Shown: piece after piece, positions 2,986 through 23,956 of the stretch
Layout of the letters: each line of letters begins with the position of its first letter
Numbering within the stretch: position 1 is the first letter of the stretch
Assembly (NCBI GenBank): GCA_014360465.1
Contig: JACIXQ010000001.1
Span: 1 to 35,676, forward strand
Direction: 5' to 3'
DNA: 35,676 nucleotides
Origin: a bacterium
GTDB taxonomy: Bacteria; Armatimonadota; JACIXR01
Made by a program: the position numbers and the translations under genes
Notes under the pieces: generated by a model
What the model saw: only the letters and a program-made list of their open reading frames with translations
Told to the model about the DNA's origin: nothing
The model's database searches: none

Positions 2986-4185
2986 CTAAGATTCAAGGGC
3001 GAGGCGAAGCTCTTCTTTCTCTTTGGCGTACTCCTCCAAAGGTACGCCGAGGCGGAAAGCCTCAGCTGCTTGTCTCATAGCCCTTACTCCTGCTTTTGTG
3101 CCAAGGGGATGGGAGAGTATTCCGACTCCTGCAATAGCCAGCACATCTATGCCGAATATTGTGAGATTATCCACCAGGTTTGCTGGTTTTAAACCACCAG
3201 CAAGGGCAGGAGCGCAGTCCTTTATGCCAGGAATAGGTTCTCGGAGGGCTTCTGTCATTTGCTTCGCTGTTTCAAGGTCGGGACGCAGGTATCCGCCTAC
3301 CACCCCTGTCTGAAGGGCATCGCCTCCTAATAATCTTACGAGCTTTGCGAAAGCGGAACTGGATAAGCCCCAATTTGGCAATCTATCATAGATTGAGCGA
3401 CCGCCGCTTTCAACATATATTGGCACATTAATGTTTGGGTCTCTGGCGAGAATAGAAAGGGAATGGAAGCCCGATGCCAGTATATGAATCATAAGGGCAT
3501 CGGCACCAGCTTCTATAGCCCTGTAAGCGTTTTCCTTTATTCTATCGGGAGATGTGGTTATATGAGCGCAATACAAAACCTTTCTTTCTGCTTTTTTAAT
3601 TGCTTCTTTCACAGCTTTGACTCTTTCTTCCAAGGGGCAATAAGCAGGGTTTGCCATCTTTTCGTCATCAGAAACGATATCAACGCCTGCCAAAGCCGCT
3701 TCCTCGCATCTCTGAACAACTTCTTCAACTGTCAAACCGGCGCAAGGCTTAACGAACATTCCCAAGAGAAGCTCTTCTTCCTTTAACCCAACAAGCTTCT
3801 TAATCCCTTTCAAACCAAATTTCGGTCCGGGGAAAAGGGAAAGCATTTTCGGTGGGAGAGAGAAATCAACAATTTTAACCCATTCAATATCACGGAATTC
3901 AAAGGCTGGACCGCCAGTGGCAAAGAGCCAGAACGCTGTAAATGGGTCTTCATCTTCCTGAAAGTTTATCAGGGGGTAGGCGCATTTCGCTATACCCTTG
4001 CCTTTATCTAATTCTTTAATTTCAAGGACAGTGCCCTGGCACTTCTTGAACAACTCGCTTGGTTCACCCTTACCAACCCACTTCCCGGTTGTTTCTTCTC
4101 TTGCAATCCTTTCACTTGCCTCTTTTAGGTCTCCGCTTGTTTCAATGAGATAGTCAACAGTAAAGTAATCAGAAAGCTCGCTCAT
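2986..4185 (-). CDS. Divergent RuBisCO-like protein (form IV)
   Basis: This 399-residue protein has the two-domain RuBisCO large-chain layout: an N-terminal alpha/beta domain (~1-125) and a C-terminal barrel (~135-399). The barrel carries MFVKPCAGL (143-151), GVDIVSDDE (167-175), the loop-6 equivalent GVVGGYLRP (294-302) and LAGGLKP. Compared with RuBisCO, the K175 equivalent is kept (K146), but K177 is Cys148, the carbamylated K201 is Ser172, loop-6 K334 is Tyr299 and H327 is Gln292. The Asp/Glu metal ligands of the DDE triplet are kept. CO2 fixation is therefore excluded, and the classical MtnW enolase, which also uses the carbamylated lysine, is unlikely. It starts 2 bases after the upstream stop with SD AGAGGTG. 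It is last in a ten-gene operon, directly behind a secreted beta-helix protein. The true reaction is unknown. Confidence 0.88.
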   Translation of the reverse strand: MSELSDYFTVDYLIETSGDLKEASERIAREETTGKWVGKGEPSELFKKCQGTVLEIKELDKGKGIAKCAYPLINFQEDEDPFTAFWLFATGGPAFEFRDIEWVKIVDFSLPPKMLSLFPGPKFGLKGIKKLVGLKEEELLLGMFVKPCAGLTVEEVVQRCEEAALAGVDIVSDDEKMANPAYCPLEERVKAVKEAIKKAERKVLYCAHITTSPDRIKENAYRAIEAGADALMIHILASGFHSLSILARDPNINVPIYVESGGRSIYDRLPNWGLSSSAFAKLVRLLGGDALQTGVVGGYLRPDLETAKQMTEALREPIPGIKDCAPALAGGLKPANLVDNLTIFGIDVLAIAGVGILSHPLGTKAGVRAMRQAAEAFRLGVPLEEYAKEKEELRLALES

Positions 4186-4187
4186 TT

Positions 4188-6254
4188 TTATTCACCTCTT
4201 TTTAGAGTGGGAAACTCAAAGGGAATGAAGCCGAGTTTTAAAGCTGGGGAATTCTTTTTCAGATGGAAATCGTATTTAGAGGCATCTTTAAACAGGGGGT
4301 CGGCAATGAGGGAATTTTTGTCCATACCCTTTTCCTTCCATTGCTCAAATGTTAGTCCGGCAAACGATATTTCTCCTCCACCCTCTTTCCAGTAGATATT
4401 CTTGTCAAAGAAGAAGTGGAAATCGCCCAAGTTTCCCGCAAATAACGCCCCTTCTTTCCAGTATACGATGTTGTTCTGGAAGAAAAAGCTCGTGTGTTCC
4501 TCGGGTCGGCTACGCTGTATCTGGGCATCACGTCCAAAAGCGAAGATGTTATTGCGGACGATGTTCTCTTTTCCATAGTGTTGGTGGAATCCACCGTGAG
4601 TAGTATTGTAAACGAGGTTCTTCTCAACGAGGATATGCGTGCTTCCCTCGTCTAAGTATATGCCCCAACCACCGTAGTGTAGACCCGCGATGTCATGGAA
4701 TATGTTCAATCTTATCACAGTGCCCGGTTGCACTCCTAATGTATAGATTCCACCCATATCGCTGAGAATCGGTCCATCCCCATTGGAAAGTTTACCAATA
4801 TGATGGACTATGTTACCCTCTATGAGATTATCCCTGGCAAGGGTGTCACCATAGCCCCAAGTCCAACCAATGGAGAAGCCTGAATAATAGAAGTCATGGA
4901 TATGGTTTCGGGAAAGTATATTGCCATAACTTTGTCCCACCCATATTCCCACTGCACTATGAAAGATTTTTCCACCATTGTGTATATGGCAACCTATCAC
5001 CTTGTTTCTGCCTGTTTGTTCGTTCTCATTCTGTCTTATTCCGGTTTCCCCAATCTTAACTCCACCTGCTCCAAGATCAGTGAGCTCACAGGCGATGATG
5101 CTGTTATCCTTACATCCCTTTGAGAGTTCAATGGCATAGGTTCCGATATTCTTTATCGTGCAATTTTCTATTCTACATTTATGTGCACCTTCGGCATAAA
5201 TCGCCCCAGGCACTCCCCAGGCGGCTTGTGCGAAGCCTCCTACTTCCTCTTCCGAGGTTGACCACCAAGTCGGTTTGCTCTCTGGTGAGAACCACCATTC
5301 GCAATGGCTGAAGGTTAAGCCTTTGAAAATTATATTTTCCACAAATTTCCCTTCTTCTGGTTTACCTTCCAAACGCACAAGTTGGGAAAGAGCCGGAGCG
5401 AAAATCTTCACCTTGTCGGGTTCCAGCTTGGAAGCTGGTAGATAATAAAGTTTGCCTGTTTCTTTGACAAGGCACCATTCTCCTGGGGCATCAAGATAAA
5501 CGAGGGCGTTCTCTACATAGTATGGGTCACCCACCTGAGGGGGAAATACAATTTTTTTGCCGAAAATGATTTGGTTCTTCTCTTTATCAATTTTTGCGAT
5601 TGGCAGATGGGATTCCGCCCATAGAGCCATCACGATTACCTCTGCATCCTTCAAGGAGGGGTCATCTATTAAATCTCCTTCTTTGAAGAGAAAGTCATTA
5701 GCCTGCATCCAATTAGGATTAGAAGGAGCTCCCGCAACCGCCAAGTATCCTTCATTCGGATGGCGCGCTCGTTTTAACCTTACATCTCCAGCCCAAAGCT
5801 CCCTGAAGAACCATTTGCCTTCTTTTGCCTGGGGAATCTCAGTCACCCATAGCTCCCTTCCTTTTACCGTTTCTTTTTTCCATTTTGATAGAACTACTGC
5901 TCCGCTGATCAGGGGTTTTTCGTTCTTATATGCGGCGTATGTAACTGGGCACTTCTCCGTTCCGGAATCCTCGGGAGTTAGAACAAAGGGCTTATCTAAT
6001 AAGTAAAGCCCTCCCCTGATATAGATTGTTACCGGGGTTTTCAGAGTCCCACCCTCCTTTTTCTTGAGCTCCCGGACAGCATCCCTGGCTCGTTCAAGCG
6101 TTGCGAAGGGACCATCGGTTTTTCCTTTATTTGGTGCGGCTAATTTGCCCGACCAGGAATCGTTCCCTTTTGGTGAAACATAGAAGACTGTTTCAGCCTG
6201 CAAGCTTAAAGAGAGAAGGAGCATAAGGGGGATAAGAAAATGGCACCAATTCAT
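4188..6254 (-). CDS. Secreted right-handed parallel beta-helix protein
   Basis: This 688-residue protein has a cleavable signal peptide (~1-20, LIPLMLLLSLSLQA). The N-terminal block FYVSPKGNDSWSGKLAAPN...DGPFATLERARDAV is typical of secreted beta-helix carbohydrate-active or carbohydrate-binding proteins. The rest (~330-600) has repeated short strands with Asn/Gly/His turns (NCTIKNIG, GNIVHHIG, NIFHDIAG, NNIVY), consistent with stacked helix coils. Such proteins often act on plant or bacterial polysaccharides as lyases or glycosidases, but no catalytic set can be assigned here. Its ATG overlaps the folD stop (ATGA), so it is a true member of this housekeeping operon and is coupled to the RuBisCO-like gene behind it. 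Confidence 0.82.
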   Translation of the reverse strand: MNWCHFLIPLMLLLSLSLQAETVFYVSPKGNDSWSGKLAAPNKGKTDGPFATLERARDAVRELKKKEGGTLKTPVTIYIRGGLYLLDKPFVLTPEDSGTEKCPVTYAAYKNEKPLISGAVVLSKWKKETVKGRELWVTEIPQAKEGKWFFRELWAGDVRLKRARHPNEGYLAVAGAPSNPNWMQANDFLFKEGDLIDDPSLKDAEVIVMALWAESHLPIAKIDKEKNQIIFGKKIVFPPQVGDPYYVENALVYLDAPGEWCLVKETGKLYYLPASKLEPDKVKIFAPALSQLVRLEGKPEEGKFVENIIFKGLTFSHCEWWFSPESKPTWWSTSEEEVGGFAQAAWGVPGAIYAEGAHKCRIENCTIKNIGTYAIELSKGCKDNSIIACELTDLGAGGVKIGETGIRQNENEQTGRNKVIGCHIHNGGKIFHSAVGIWVGQSYGNILSRNHIHDFYYSGFSIGWTWGYGDTLARDNLIEGNIVHHIGKLSNGDGPILSDMGGIYTLGVQPGTVIRLNIFHDIAGLHYGGWGIYLDEGSTHILVEKNLVYNTTHGGFHQHYGKENIVRNNIFAFGRDAQIQRSRPEEHTSFFFQNNIVYWKEGALFAGNLGDFHFFFDKNIYWKEGGGEISFAGLTFEQWKEKGMDKNSLIADPLFKDASKYDFHLKKNSPALKLGFIPFEFPTLKRGE

Positions 6255-9778: not shown

Positions 9779-10837
9779 TCACCAACCCAAAGAAAATAAG
9801 AAGTATTCCAGTAGATGAAGTAACAATCCCATCAAAAAAAGGGCAAATATGACCAGGATGGTGGTTTCCAGCCATGGTGTGGAAAGTGTTGTCAATATCT
9901 TACCGGAAGTAGTGGGTAAGTATGCAAGATTAGAGAAGAGATTATCAAAGAACCTTGCAATACTTAAGTAATAATTATGAATACCTCCTCTACCTAATAT
10001 GAATAAAGCTAATATGGATAAGGGAACTAAGAAAGAGAGCCATCTATATTTCTGCCTTTGATGCTCTGTGTAGATTGGACATTTTAAACAATCGTGTTTT
10101 TTCTGCATTAATTGGCTTGTTCTTTTTAACAATCTGGCACTTTCAGGTTGCCTAACACTTGTTTGAGAAATCATTTGTTCTACGATCGCCTCATCGCAAA
10201 GGCAACCTCCACCTACTTTCCAGCAGCTCCTTTTTCTTGCCCAAGCTGGACAGAATTCTCTGAGGAACTCGCGACAAAAAGGGGTATCCCAGCAGGGTAA
10301 AGATATGGAAGAAAGTAAAGAAGTTCGTCGGTAAGGTGTGGAAGGTATCTTTTCTTTTGTTATTATATCCTTTGTGGCGAAATGGCTGCGAAGAAGGTAA
10401 AAGATTTCCCCCAAAAAAAGTATTCCGGAAAAAACAAAGGAAATGATTCCCAAGGTATGTGTCGTAAGCAGAATTCTATGCATGGGAGTGGTGGGGAGAC
10501 CACCAGATAGGAAGAATGTTCCCAAAATGAACGGGATTGCCAAATAAAGAAACAATCCGATCAAAAGCAGGATAAATGCTACTTCAAAGGAGAAAAGATA
10601 GCGAAGGAAAATAGCTAATAAAAGCAAGCAATATCCTATGGTTAACAATTGTAAAGAAAGGGAGAATTTATAAAGTATGATTTCTTGAGCAAGAGGCGGG
10701 AAACTTGAATAATGGGAAACGAAGCCGGAGACGAAGCCGTAGATTACATAAATTAGGGAACCGGAGAATAGTAATAGTCCACTGATAAGGACACCAATAT
10801 AAAAGGGACCGAACAGAAAAGCCCACTTTTCTTTCAC
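9779..10837 (-). CDS. Polytopic membrane protein with a Cys-rich loop, unknown function
   Basis: I do not recognise this 352-residue protein. It has about seven hydrophobic segments: ~10-37, ~55-80, ~84-110, ~127-147, ~245-262, and ~318-345, plus one weaker. A large hydrophilic loop (~170-240) holds eight or more Cys in the pattern PCWDTPFC, EFCPAW, SCWKVGGGCLC and later CLKC. The Cys spacing suggests metal or Fe-S binding or disulphides, depending on which face the loop occupies. The start is GTG at 10837, 11 bases after efp, and the stop is 3 bases before the BCCP-like ATG. It sits firmly within the efp-acc operon, but no role is evident. Confidence 0.7.
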   Translation of the reverse strand: MKEKWAFLFGPFYIGVLISGLLLFSGSLIYVIYGFVSGFVSHYSSFPPLAQEIILYKFSLSLQLLTIGYCLLLLAIFLRYLFSFEVAFILLLIGLFLYLAIPFILGTFFLSGGLPTTPMHRILLTTHTLGIISFVFSGILFLGEIFYLLRSHFATKDIITKEKIPSTPYRRTSLLSSISLPCWDTPFCREFLREFCPAWARKRSCWKVGGGCLCDEAIVEQMISQTSVRQPESARLLKRTSQLMQKKHDCLKCPIYTEHQRQKYRWLSFLVPLSILALFILGRGGIHNYYLSIARFFDNLFSNLAYLPTTSGKILTTLSTPWLETTILVIFALFLMGLLLHLLEYFLFSLGW

Positions 10838-11691: not shown

Positions 11692-12480
11692 ATGCAGGTA
11701 AAGATAGGTGTATTTGGCGGTTCCGGTTTCTATTCTTTATTCGACGAATTTGAAGAAATAAAAGTTGATACTCCCTACGGTCCACCAAGCGATAAAGTGG
11801 CTATCGGTAGAATTGGAAAGTGGGAAGTTGCTTTCTTGCCACGCCATGGAAGGGACCATTCCCTACCACCTCATCGGATAAATTACAGGGCGAATATCTG
11901 GGCTTTTCACCACCTTGGAGTTGAACGAATCATCGCACCCTGTGCTGCGGGGTCACTCCAGCCACATATAAAACCGGGTGATTTCGTGATTTGTGACCAG
12001 TTTGTTGATAGGACAAGGGGAAGAATTGATACATTCTACGATGGTCCCACAACAATACATATCTCCACAGCTGACCCTTATTGCCCTCAATTGCGTGAGT
12101 TAGCAATAGAATGCGCCCAAAAGCTGGGAATTTCCTATCATCCACAGGGAACGGTTGTCGTTATCCAGGGACCGCGTTTTTCCACAAAAGCTGAATCGCA
12201 ATGGTTCACGAAGATGGGGTGGGAGGTGATAAATATGACGCAGTATCCCGAGGTAACTCTTGCAAGGGAGCTGGCTATTTGTTATGTCAATATTTCGCTT
12301 ATAACAGATTGGGATGTGGGGTTGGTTGGACAAGTGGAGCCGGTATCCGCCGAGGAGGTTACCAGGGTATTTAGGGAGAATAACGAGAAGGTGAAGAAAT
12401 TGATTTACACGATGATAGAAAATATGCCAGAGGAAAGGACATGCCATTGCAAGGATGCCCTTAAAGGAGCGGTAGTATGA
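11692..12480 (+). CDS. mtnP: S-methyl-5'-thioadenosine phosphorylase
   Basis: MtnP splits 5'-methylthioadenosine (by-product of polyamine synthesis and other AdoMet use) with phosphate to adenine and 5-methylthioribose-1-phosphate. This 262-residue nucleoside phosphorylase has IGVFGGSGFYSL, FLPRHGRDHSLPPHRINYRANIW, APCAAGSL, QGPRFSTKAE, INMTQYPEVTLARE and TDWD. The two Asp of TDWD occupy the position that favours adenine over hypoxanthine in this family, so methylthioadenosine is the likely substrate rather than inosine or guanosine. ATG at 11692 follows AAGGAGG by 11 bases. The stop overlaps the mtnA ATG (ATGA), tying product to next enzyme. Confidence 0.94.
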   Translation: MQVKIGVFGGSGFYSLFDEFEEIKVDTPYGPPSDKVAIGRIGKWEVAFLPRHGRDHSLPPHRINYRANIWAFHHLGVERIIAPCAAGSLQPHIKPGDFVICDQFVDRTRGRIDTFYDGPTTIHISTADPYCPQLRELAIECAQKLGISYHPQGTVVVIQGPRFSTKAESQWFTKMGWEVINMTQYPEVTLARELAICYVNISLITDWDVGLVGQVEPVSAEEVTRVFRENNEKVKKLIYTMIENMPEERTCHCKDALKGAVV

Positions 12481-13538
12481 GCGTGAAATGGGAACTCCCA
12501 CCCACCCTAAAATGGGAAAACGATAAACTTCTCCTAATAGACCAGACACGCCTGCCTGAGGAGCTTGTTTTTATAGAATGTTCCATTCCCCAAGAGGTGG
12601 CAGAATGCATTAAAACTATGAAAGTAAGGGGTGCGCCCGCTATTGGGGTGGCAGCTGCTTTCGGAATGTTTCTTTCAATAAAGGATTTTGAGGGAGATGT
12701 TGATTTGCTTTTTGAGAAATTGGAGGAAACTGCCGAGCTCCTGCGGTCAACACGTCCCACCGCCTATAACCTTTTTTGGGCAATTGAAAGAATGCTTCAA
12801 CGGGCGAGGGATATGCAGGGAGAGGAAACTGGAAAAGCGAAAGAAGCCCTTTTTGAAGAGGCGATGAGGATGTGGGAGGAAGATATAGAGGTCAACAGGG
12901 CAATTGGGCGAAATGGTAGTCGGTTCATCAAGGATGGAGCAAATGTTTTGACCATTTGCAACGCTGGGTCGCTTGCAACAGTTTGGTTCGGCACAGCGCT
13001 CGGCATAATAAGAAGTGCTATTGAGGAAGGTAAGAAAATCCATGTTTATGCATGCGAAACACGTCCACGCCTCCAGGGAATCCTAACAGTATTTGAGCTT
13101 CTTGAAGATAATATACCTGTTACTCTTATCACCGATTTTATGGCTGGATATTTGATGAGCAAAGGAAAAGTAGATGTTGTGGTAACGGGTGCGGATAGGG
13201 TAGCTCGGAATGGCGATGTTGCTAACAAAATTGGCACTTATACCCTTGCAGTTCTTGCGAAATCACACGATATCCCTTTTATCGTTGCCGCTCCATTATC
13301 TTCAATAGATATCAACATCGCCACGGGAGCGGATATACCGATAGAAGAAAGAGAGAAAGAAGAAGTGCTCTCCATTAAAGGGAAAAGATTGATTACAGAA
13401 GATGTTGATGTCATCAACCCCGCTTTTGATGTAACCCCTTCCCGTTTAATAACTGCTATAGTGACGGAGCGGGGAGTATGTTCACCACCCTTTGAGGAAA
13501 GTGTGCCCGCAATATTTCATAAACAAGGAGGTAGATAG
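12477..13538 (+). CDS. mtnA: S-methyl-5-thioribose-1-phosphate isomerase
   Basis: MtnA converts the methylthioribose-1-phosphate made by MtnP to methylthioribulose-1-phosphate. This 353-residue protein has the RGAPAIG phosphate loop (51-57), catalytic Cys161 in ICNAGSLAT, CETRPRLQG, and Asp240 in TGADRVARNGDVANKIGTY. These conserved features distinguish it from eIF2B regulatory subunits. It is coupled to mtnP through a 4-base overlap, and its 3' end contains the SD of apt. Downstream salvage genes (mtnB, mtnX/C, mtnD) are not in the window. Confidence 0.95.
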   Translation: MSVKWELPPTLKWENDKLLLIDQTRLPEELVFIECSIPQEVAECIKTMKVRGAPAIGVAAAFGMFLSIKDFEGDVDLLFEKLEETAELLRSTRPTAYNLFWAIERMLQRARDMQGEETGKAKEALFEEAMRMWEEDIEVNRAIGRNGSRFIKDGANVLTICNAGSLATVWFGTALGIIRSAIEEGKKIHVYACETRPRLQGILTVFELLEDNIPVTLITDFMAGYLMSKGKVDVVVTGADRVARNGDVANKIGTYTLAVLAKSHDIPFIVAAPLSSIDINIATGADIPIEEREKEEVLSIKGKRLITEDVDVINPAFDVTPSRLITAIVTERGVCSPPFEESVPAIFHKQGGR

Positions 13539-21395: not shown

Positions 21396-22507
21396 AAAAG
21401 TATCTGATTACTCTCACTTATCTATTAACCTTTATCGCTGGGTTTGCCCTCTGCTATTACCTTTATAAAAATTTAAGCAATGAACAGGTGGTATCTGTTT
21501 CACCCACCTCAATACCTATAAAGATTAAGGGGGAAAGTCCATTCGTCGCAGCGGTCGCTAAAGCGGGACCAGCCGTAGTTAATATAGATACAACATACAG
21601 AACTTCTGTTTCTCCTTTCGGTTTTCTCTTTGGGGAAGAGCCCGATATCTTGCCACCTGCTGGTAAGGGCTCTGGAGTATTAATTGCTCCTGATGGTCTA
21701 ATCCTCACAAACTATCATGTAATAAGCGGTGCAAAGAGCATAAAGGTAACTCTAATAGATGGACGGCACTTTGATGCTTCAATCGTTGGTAGAGACCCCC
21801 AAAATGATATAGCGCTCTTGCGGATAAAGGGAAAGAATTTCCCCTACCTGCAAATGGGTAATTCAGGCAAGTTAAGGGTAGGAGATTGGGTAATCGCTAT
21901 TGGTAATCCCTTTGGTTTATCTAATACTGCTACGGTAGGAATTGTGAGCGCTATCCGCAAGGGACCTTTCACTGTTGAGGGAAAGCTTCTCGCTGCGAGC
22001 ACGCTTATACAAACCGATGCGGCGATAAACAAAGGCAACAGTGGTGGAGCTCTTATCAACCTCGCAGGTGAATTGGTTGGCATTTGCACTGCCATCCTTA
22101 CCCCGCCAATGGAAGAAGGAAATGTGGGCATAGGGTTTGCTATTGCTGTAGACGCTATCAAGAATTTAATCCCCGAACTGGAGAAGAAAGGCAGAGTTGC
22201 TCACGCATGGTTCGGCATTCTCTATCGGACGCTCGACAGTCAAACGAGGCTCATAATGAACCTTCCTGAAAATCTTAAAGGGGCATTGGTAGAACAAGTG
22301 TTCCCTAATAGCCCAGCTCAAAAAGTGGGTGTTAAGCCGGGAGATATTATAGTTAAGATGGATGACAGAGAGGTGAAGACGGCGGATGATGTTATGATAG
22401 TTATGTTGGGTAAAAAGGTTGGAGACCCACTTGTCGTGAGGATATGGCGTGAGGGTAAGGAAATAACCTTCAATGTCAAGCTGGGCGAACAGCCGCCCTC
22501 CCTTTAA
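21392..22507 (+). CDS. HtrA/DegP-type serine protease with one PDZ domain
   Basis: This is a 371-residue envelope protease. It has an uncleaved-type N-terminal anchor (~5-24), a trypsin-like domain (~50-245) and one PDZ domain (~270-365). The triad is visible: His109 in LTNYHV, Asp139 in DPQNDIALL and Ser217 in [10 protein letters not shown]. The family degrades or chaperones misfolded extracytoplasmic proteins. ATGA overlap with ribH puts it at the end of the rib operon, an unusual partner. Its stop shares bases with the stop of the convergent gene at 22504. Confidence 0.93.
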
Positions 22508-22980
22508 AACTCCACCCCGTACACCTTTTCTGCTGCCTGATTATATCCTTCAATCCTTATTATTTTCCAGCCTTTCTTCTCCTTCTTTAGATAGACCGAT
22601 AGGGAAAGTGGTATCAAGAGAGGTTGGTTCATATCATCCATCTGGATTAGTAGGGTGCAGTTCAGCTGCACCGAGGCATCAGGTGTTGTTATGTAAGGGG
22701 TCATCTCATTTATTGATAAATCTAAAACAACGGCTCGGCTCAGTTCTCTTCTCAAGTTGAGTTTTATATCATTATAAGTTATGCCCATACTATCCTGGTA
22801 GTTCTCCGAAAGTAAAGAAAGGAGAAGCGAGGGGTTTCTTTCTCTTATTCCCCTCAATGCATTTTGGAAAAGAAGCTGAATAGCTTCCCTGTCAGATAAG
22901 GGCTTTGGCTTGAGAAGCAAGTAAGAAGTGAGCCCCGCTAATACCAAAAAGAGCGCTATAATGAATCTTTTCCGAGTCAT
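22504..22980 (-). CDS. Anchored protein of unknown function, NTF2/SnoaL-like?
   Basis: This 158-residue protein has a basic N-terminus and a hydrophobic segment (~7-24), either signal or anchor. A domain of helices and beta strands follows (REAIQLLFQNALRGIRERNPSLLLSLLSENY, VLDLSINEMTPYITTPDASVQLNCTLLIQM, GWKIIRIEGYN). The helix-then-curved-sheet order and the final 'W-K-I' strand resemble NTF2-like folds such as lipoprotein or nuclear-transport-factor families. This is a fold guess, not a function. It converges on the HtrA gene with a 4-base overlap of stop codons. Confidence 0.6.
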   Translation of the reverse strand: MTRKRFIIALFLVLAGLTSYLLLKPKPLSDREAIQLLFQNALRGIRERNPSLLLSLLSENYQDSMGITYNDIKLNLRRELSRAVVLDLSINEMTPYITTPDASVQLNCTLLIQMDDMNQPLLIPLSLSVYLKKEKKGWKIIRIEGYNQAAEKVYGVEF

Positions 22981-23198: not shown

Positions 23199-23936
23199 CT
23201 ATCTTGGTGTAAAAGAGGGAGCTCCTATTGTTCCCGGTTGTGCGGCTACCCGGAACCTCAACAACCTTCCATCTATCACTTTAGGACCGCTTAGAAGTTC
23301 ACAAAGAGCGGAAAAACTGCCCTCTTTTTCAGGGATAAGATAGAATTGAATTGTAAGTGTTTGACCCGGTAGTACATCGGGTAACCAGAAATAGAAGGAA
23401 TCGCCTCTTATCTGGCTATTAAGCATCGGTATTGTGCTCTGTATACGAAAATTGTTGAAGAAAGCGTAAGGAAATCGCAGGAAGAGGTTCGTCAATGGTT
23501 GGGTTCCTGTATTGTTTATCTGGAAGTTAAGGACGAAATAGGAGCCTTGGATGAGCTGTTGAGGGAAAGTAACATTGAATTCCCAAGCTGCCGGCGTCTT
23601 GATTTTCCTGAAGAACAACCCCCAAATCAATAGCAACAAAATTACGACCGAGATAGCGCTAATCCCCAAAGTTCTTGCTACCCTTCTATGCAAGCGCTCT
23701 TCCCCCACGATTAGGCGGGAACGGAATAGGTCGCAGGAAGCAGGTATTGTGTCGGGGTCAGTTATAGCCTGAATCTCGAGTTGAAGGGGATGAATACATT
23801 CCAGCGTTTTGGCATTGAAGAAACGACAATAGCGACAGCATACCAGGTTGGTGCCGCACTTGGAACAGAGAGGGAAAGGAGGAACCCCCTCCGCATTAAG
23901 GGTGCCACAATTGGGACATTTGTACATTCTTGGCAT
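23199..23936 (-). CDS. Zinc-ribbon protein with one membrane helix and an extracytoplasmic domain
   Basis: The protein begins MPRMYKCPNCG and is 245 residues from ATG 23936; a TTG 15 bases upstream overlaps the SD (GGAGGG at 23949-23944) and is not favoured. The N-terminal region has paired Cys (CPNC, CSKC, CRYC and single Cys further on), a double zinc ribbon. A basic stretch (RLHRRVARTLG) leads into one membrane helix (~90-110). The C-terminal part is beta-rich (NVTFPQQLIQGSYFVLNFQINNTGTQPLTNLFLRF), like CARDB/DUF11-type Ig-like domains. Topology predicts the zinc ribbon inside and the Ig-like domain outside. Function unknown. Confidence 0.7.
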   Translation of the reverse strand: MPRMYKCPNCGTLNAEGVPPFPLCSKCGTNLVCCRYCRFFNAKTLECIHPLQLEIQAITDPDTIPASCDLFRSRLIVGEERLHRRVARTLGISAISVVILLLLIWGLFFRKIKTPAAWEFNVTFPQQLIQGSYFVLNFQINNTGTQPLTNLFLRFPYAFFNNFRIQSTIPMLNSQIRGDSFYFWLPDVLPGQTLTIQFYLIPEKEGSFSALCELLSGPKVIDGRLLRFRVAAQPGTIGAPSFTPR

Positions 23937-23956
23937 AGGTTCACCCTCCAATGTCT

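Follow-up and report, generated by a model that had tools for sequence, protein, structure and literature searches.

The window, by which is meant the whole analysed stretch of 35,676 nucleotides, carries on its reverse strand a complete open reading frame for a RuBisCO-like protein (RLP) of 399 amino acids. Upstream on the same strand is a gene for a GH141-like protein, and 2 bases separate its end from the start of the RLP gene:

2986 to 4185, reverse strand: RLP with RuBisCO N-terminal domain and TIM barrel (open reading frame, Pfam, AlphaFold2, Foldseek).
4188 to 6254, reverse strand: GH141-like parallel beta-helix protein of 688 amino acids with an apparent signal peptide (PF13229; PF21231, GH141_M).

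An earlier note, made from the sequence alone, had assigned the RLP to positions 3280 to 3755, an interval which lies within the gene but covers only the core of the barrel. Both large-chain domains of RuBisCO are found in the protein above the curated Pfam cut-offs (PF00016, 143.7 bits against 30.1; PF02788, 40.6 bits against 20.7), and this places it in the RuBisCO superfamily. The AlphaFold2 model, built from an alignment of 33 sequences, has a mean pLDDT of 93.4 and a pTM of 0.92. When the model is compared with solved structures by Foldseek, form III RuBisCO (2cwx/2d69, 6hun, 8dht) is the best match, with 2d69 nearest at a TM of 0.91, and it is followed by the Chlorobium RLP, the R. palustris RLP2 and MtnW. 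The three-dimensional fold of RuBisCO is thus predicted with confidence.

In the host genome, which is 97.8% complete and amounts to 2.69 Mb on 161 contigs, the RLP gene is the sole match to PF00016. Each of the three congeneric genomes compared, all assembled separately, has the reading frame intact, and between these congeners the RLP is 83-85% identical at the protein level. For the neighbours at the same locus the identities are lower, 79% for folD and 80-82% for accC, and synonymous sites are saturated. It follows that the RLP gene is under purifying selection and, as judged from these comparisons, it is not a decaying gene. A search of viral contigs for relatives of the RLP found none.

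In all three genomes of the genus the GH141-like gene adjoins the RLP gene (75% identity), and more distant GH141-like homologues are present elsewhere in each of them. Upstream of it the three congeners have folD, nusB and accC. Downstream of the RLP gene nothing recurs among the neighbours within the genus: there is an isochorismatase gene with a QPRTase-like gene in one species, and a galactokinase gene with GalT in another. No sugar kinase gene adjoins the RLP gene in the genus.

Three other places in the window may be mentioned. A gene at 9779 to 10837 (reverse strand), situated between efp and an accB-like gene and conserved in the genus, encodes a protein of 352 amino acids with no match in Pfam or NCBIfam. 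Just before nusA, two reading frames at 22504 to 22980 and 23199 to 23951 (both on the reverse strand, opposite to the flanking genes) have no Pfam match and may be spurious. On the forward strand, 11692 to 13538 holds the gene for MTA phosphorylase and, after it, that for MtnA. The genome has a single class II aldolase and no MtnD (PF03079), and mtnP-mtnA without MtnD possibly reflects an aldolase-type 5-methylthioribulose-1-phosphate shunt.

Active-site residues

The activation step of RuBisCO is the carbamylation of one lysine. The carbamate, formed on K201, is stabilised by interactions that include H294 and T173, and D203 and E204 coordinate Mg (PMC8920986). The residues of the RLP were matched to RuBisCO numbering by string search and by alignment, with the same result in both cases. 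The alignment has 89 sequences: the window RLP with its relatives, references annotated as MtnW, OiaX or RuBisCO, and four sequences from the PDB. The codons of the active site, all on the reverse strand, are as follows, where "clade" denotes the phylogenetic group described in the next section:

3754 to 3759: Met143-Phe144, RuBisCO positions 172-173; Thr-Ile in 23 of 23 other clade rows.
3748 to 3750: Lys146, which retains K175, as do all 89 aligned sequences.
3742 to 3744: Cys148, at the position of K177, where the whole clade has Cys or Thr.
3670 to 3672: Ser172, at the position of the carbamylated Lys201 (alignment of 89).
3661 to 3666: Asp174-Glu175, the metal ligands D203 and E204, retained.
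3484 to 3486: His234, at the position of Asp268; Asn in nearly all clade members.
3409 to 3411: Glu259, at the position of His294 (alignment of 89).
3310 to 3312: Gln292, at the position of H327, where the clade has Gln or Arg and OiaX has Gln.
3289 to 3291: Tyr299, at the position of K334 in loop 6, where the clade has Tyr or His.

The assignments made in the earlier note, for K175, K177, K201, D203, E204, H327 and K334, were each confirmed in both ways. Two changes are absent from it: His234, and Glu259, which is no less unusual than Ser172. The equivalents of R295 and S379 are also replaced (Ser260 and Ala329), and the phosphate-loop glycines G380, G381 and G403 are kept as G330, G331 and G353. 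In comparison with form III RuBisCO, the window RLP is thus without the equivalents of K177, K201, H294, R295, H327 and K334, and it cannot form the carbamate. That it would be a RuBisCO carboxylase of forms I-III is rejected, since the positions of K201, K177, H294, H327 and K334 hold S, C, E, Q and Y.

How unusual are these residues? At position 201 there is K in 86 of the 89 aligned sequences and S in 3, and these 3 are the window RLP and its two congeners, so that the loss of the carbamylated lysine, as claimed in the earlier note, is borne out and confined to one genus. At position 294, H is found in 85 sequences and E in the same three congeners only, the site being missing in one truncated row. 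When only the clade is considered, K201 is kept in 23/23 rows outside the genus and H294 in the 22/22 that cover the site. A whole-protein search of 291 genomes of the phylum, which is free of pattern bias at position 201, gave 25 genomes with RLPs, and among the matches examined K201 was absent only from the three congeners; a pattern scan of contigs, with [FI][IV][KS]DDEKM and [GA][TM][IF]VKP[CT][AC]G, favours K or S at 201. Sequencing error as the source of Ser172 is excluded by its presence in all three separately assembled genomes, whose RLPs are 83-85% identical. Among the RLPs sampled, none has only one of the changes K201S and H294E, and this points to a single evolutionary event. Literature searches brought up no description of an RLP lacking K201, which with partial journal coverage is weak evidence.

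In these comparisons the loss of the carbamylated-lysine position is exceptional in the family, and the unusual features of the RLP are Ser172 and Glu259, while Cys148, Gln292 and Tyr299 are ordinary for RLPs. The interpretation in the earlier note is partly supported by this loss and by the position of the RLP in the tree. The replacement of K177, H327 and K334, which the note also lists, is no evidence of a new reaction, because MtnW references lack all three, and because other members of the clade lack both K177 and K334 yet keep K201.

The clade and its relation to known systems

In a maximum-likelihood tree of 44 rows, the window RLP lies inside a clade of 21 rows with support 100/100 and a stem of 0.9 changes per column. 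This clade is separate from MtnW (with 4nas), from OiaX with its relatives and from form III RuBisCO, and its nearest sisters, L005 and L006, come from the same phylum (support 97/92). A quick tree of 63 rows gives the same grouping, with the long-branched L031, whose place is uncertain, attached to the clade. Neither tree includes a named R. rubrum RLP or DeepYkrW sequence, and IV-Photo has one probable representative in the wider tree, a long-branched protein from Thiodictyon. The members of the clade come from Armatimonadota, Chloroflexota, Planctomycetota, Verrucomicrobiota, Acidobacteriota, Omnitrophota and Aerophobetes. They share the signatures ExTGxW, KP(C/T)(A/C/S)G, DDEKM and YxH/ExGG, and none of the members scanned against NCBIfam reaches the cut-off of a model. 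K177 and K334 are replaced throughout the clade, K201 is kept outside the genus, and in the rest of the clade the positions of K177, H327 and K334 have T/C, R/Q and Y/H. On the evidence of the trees the clade is new and uncharacterised, and the window RLP falls in no characterised clade among those compared; placement in such a clade, with which the earlier note would have withdrawn its proposal, was not seen.

The same phylum contains a second, very divergent group of RLPs (L023, L024, L025, L030, L031). It is recognised by the motifs SYHMTSGxR, LKP(C/T)(T/S)G, KEDEN and ADFRQTAP, shows IKxx behind the last strand of the barrel, where HPxG is usual, stands on a long branch and comes near the cut-off of no NCBIfam model.

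MtnW, the 2,3-diketo-5-methylthiopentyl-1-phosphate enolase, is similar to the RLP in fold (TM about 0.9 to 2oek/2oem/2zvi). Both are without K177, H327 and K334, where MtnW references carry V/C, L/I and S, and both keep K175, D203 and E204. MtnW, however, keeps K201 and H294, neither of which is present in the window RLP, and the MtnW references fall in another supported group of the tree. OiaX, the 3-oxo-isoapionate-4-phosphate decarboxylase, shares with the RLP a replaced K177 (S/A/N in OiaX), a Gln at the H327 position and the DDEK motif, but it keeps K201, H294 and K334, which the window RLP does not. In R. phaseoli the OiaX gene adjoins a gene for a four-carbon acid sugar kinase (PF07005), and no such gene is present in the genome of the RLP. 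Identity with OiaX is rejected by a model score of 197.2 of 700 bits, by the separate clade and by the absence of PF07005; identity with MtnW is rejected by missed NCBIfam cut-offs, by the tree and by the absence of MtnD. The best NCBIfam score of the RLP is with form III RuBisCO (TIGR03326) and is also under the cut-off, at 211.8 of 497.45.

These comparisons bear on two possible roles. The first is in methionine salvage, where the RLP would act as an enolase of the MtnW type or, like the R. rubrum RLP, as an isomerase of 5-methylthioribulose-1-phosphate, in conjunction with mtnP-mtnA at 11692 to 13538. Both kinds of RLP have been described (PMC6302742), and MTA phosphorylase and MtnA are encoded 7.5 kb away in the window. 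This role is nevertheless improbable, because the MtnW models are far under their cut-offs (TIGR03332, 164.3 of 513.6; PRK09549, 201.4 of 409), the RLP lies outside the MtnW references in a tree that is without the R. rubrum RLP, ARD (MtnD, PF03079) is missing from a genome that is 97.8% complete, and no mtn genes occur among the annotated neighbours of the relatives.

The second role is in the degradation of plant polysaccharides. Here the RLP would be a counterpart of OiaX in D-apiose catabolism and would decarboxylate or isomerise, for example, a product of the GH141-like enzyme. RLPs do act in apiose catabolism (PMC6302742), and the GH141-like gene is directly upstream in 3/3 genomes of the genus. 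The linkage may, however, be chance operon packing, the glycoside hydrolase appears secreted while the RLP does not, and the distance from OiaX, in model score and tree as well as through the missing PF07005 kinase, makes this role improbable too.

Outside the genus, the genes near the RLP are of mixed kinds. PfkB or FGGY kinases are found at three loci (L033, L035, L050), together with a DeoC aldolase at L035. A mannitol-type dehydrogenase is found at L036, and L034 and L038 have homologues of it. There is a GFO/IDH/MocA oxidoreductase with a xylose-isomerase-like protein at L037 (homologues at L051) and at L079, a zinc sugar dehydrogenase at L042 and L083, and an alpha-mannosidase at L040. 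Other members of the clade stand beside unrelated genes, such as tilS and those for chorismate and dehydroquinate synthase. The neighbourhoods of the relatives point weakly to sugar-phosphate or sugar-acid metabolism, and since there is no sugar kinase at the locus in the genus, what can be said about the substrate comes from distant relatives with mixed contexts.

The carbamate pocket and its possible working

Consider now the positions at which the genus departs from the rest of its clade. At thirteen positions (13, 129, 143, 144, 166, 170, 171, 172, 196, 234, 259, 278 and 291) the genus has its own fixed residue, although conservation across the other clade members is 90% or more. Eight of these positions (143, 144, 170, 171, 172, 234, 259 and 291) lie where the barrel strands end on their C-terminal side, and this rim of the barrel carries the active site. 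It thus holds 8/13 changed positions against 25/73 conserved ones (hypergeometric P 0.027), a modest value for a rim that was defined from the strands of the model after the list of changes had been seen. Near the carbamate site, T143M, I144F and N234H are changed from the clade residues. When K201, its partner H294 and the T173 position are all changed on one branch, it is the carbamate together with its neighbourhood that has been hit, and from the pattern of substitutions the carbamate site is taken to be rebuilt as a unit in the genus.

Such changes could also have accumulated in a pseudoenzyme, a protein for binding or regulation whose carbamate site decayed after catalysis was lost. It would then be natural that a residue was lost which every other aligned member of the family retains, and that, apart from the GH141-like gene, no adjacent pathway genes recur in the genus. 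This explanation is unlikely, because K146, D174, E175, G330, G331 and G353 remain in place, three species carry the same fixed substitutions, and conservation of the RLP equals or exceeds that of the neighbouring housekeeping enzymes.

The preferred reading, to which a probability of roughly 0.4 may be given, is that the RLP is an active, CO2-independent enzyme for a mono-phosphorylated sugar-type substrate, in which Glu259, perhaps with His234, replaces the carbamate ligand. According to this proposal the genus would have discarded the CO2-derived carbamate when Lys201 was replaced by Ser172, the carbamate partner His294 by Glu259, the Thr/Ile pair at 172/173 by Met143/Phe144 and the Asn at 234 by His. 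A divalent metal would be kept on Asp174 and Glu175, and Glu259 on strand 5, possibly with His234 on the neighbouring strand 4, would supply the charge or the ligand of the carbamate. The more specific arrangement, in which the encoded ligands Glu259 and His234, and perhaps His208, join Asp174/Glu175 around the metal so that no CO2 activation takes place, is put forward tentatively, with the odds against it.

The same residues allow for a metal-free enzyme. Glu259 and His234 could form a proton-transfer pair with Lys146 for acid-base catalysis, while Asp174 and Glu175 would be structural or part of a proton relay. One of the three metal ligands is indeed gone, and the new Glu and His are of types used in proton transfer; that the equivalents of D203 and E204 are both kept is, however, hard to explain without a metal, and such an enzyme, which with the pseudoenzyme is the main rival of the preferred reading, is rather unlikely. 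H294E and N234H, together with the retained D203 and E204, favour a different ligand set over a metal-free site, as far as residues can indicate; the earlier note had named both.

With a different ligand set at the metal, the chemistry may be outlined as follows. Lys146 would be the remaining conserved lysine for enolisation, and the reaction would be an enolate-type proton transfer or an isomerisation without CO2 activation. The substrate would probably be a mono-phosphorylated sugar or sugar-acid derivative: when the equivalents of R295, H327 and S379 are lost and those of G380, G381 and G403 are kept, one phosphate site is likelier than two. The preference for a single phosphate over a bisphosphate builds on the established anatomy of RuBisCO. 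Formation of an enolate is a step common to RLPs (PMC10176493).

All sampled RuBisCO-like enzymes outside the genus keep the lysine that is used in RuBisCO activation. A conserved natural RLP without this lysine, and without a residue that stabilises its carbamate, therefore provides a test of whether the RuBisCO barrel needs CO2 for its metal site, and it offers for this a specific set of mutants (S172K, E259H) with a clade-mate that keeps the lysine as control. At the same time, a deep RLP clade is newly defined across several mostly uncultivated phyla. If the proposal is true, the genus would possess an enzyme of the RuBisCO superfamily in which the carbamate has been replaced by encoded ligands, and which works without activation by CO2.
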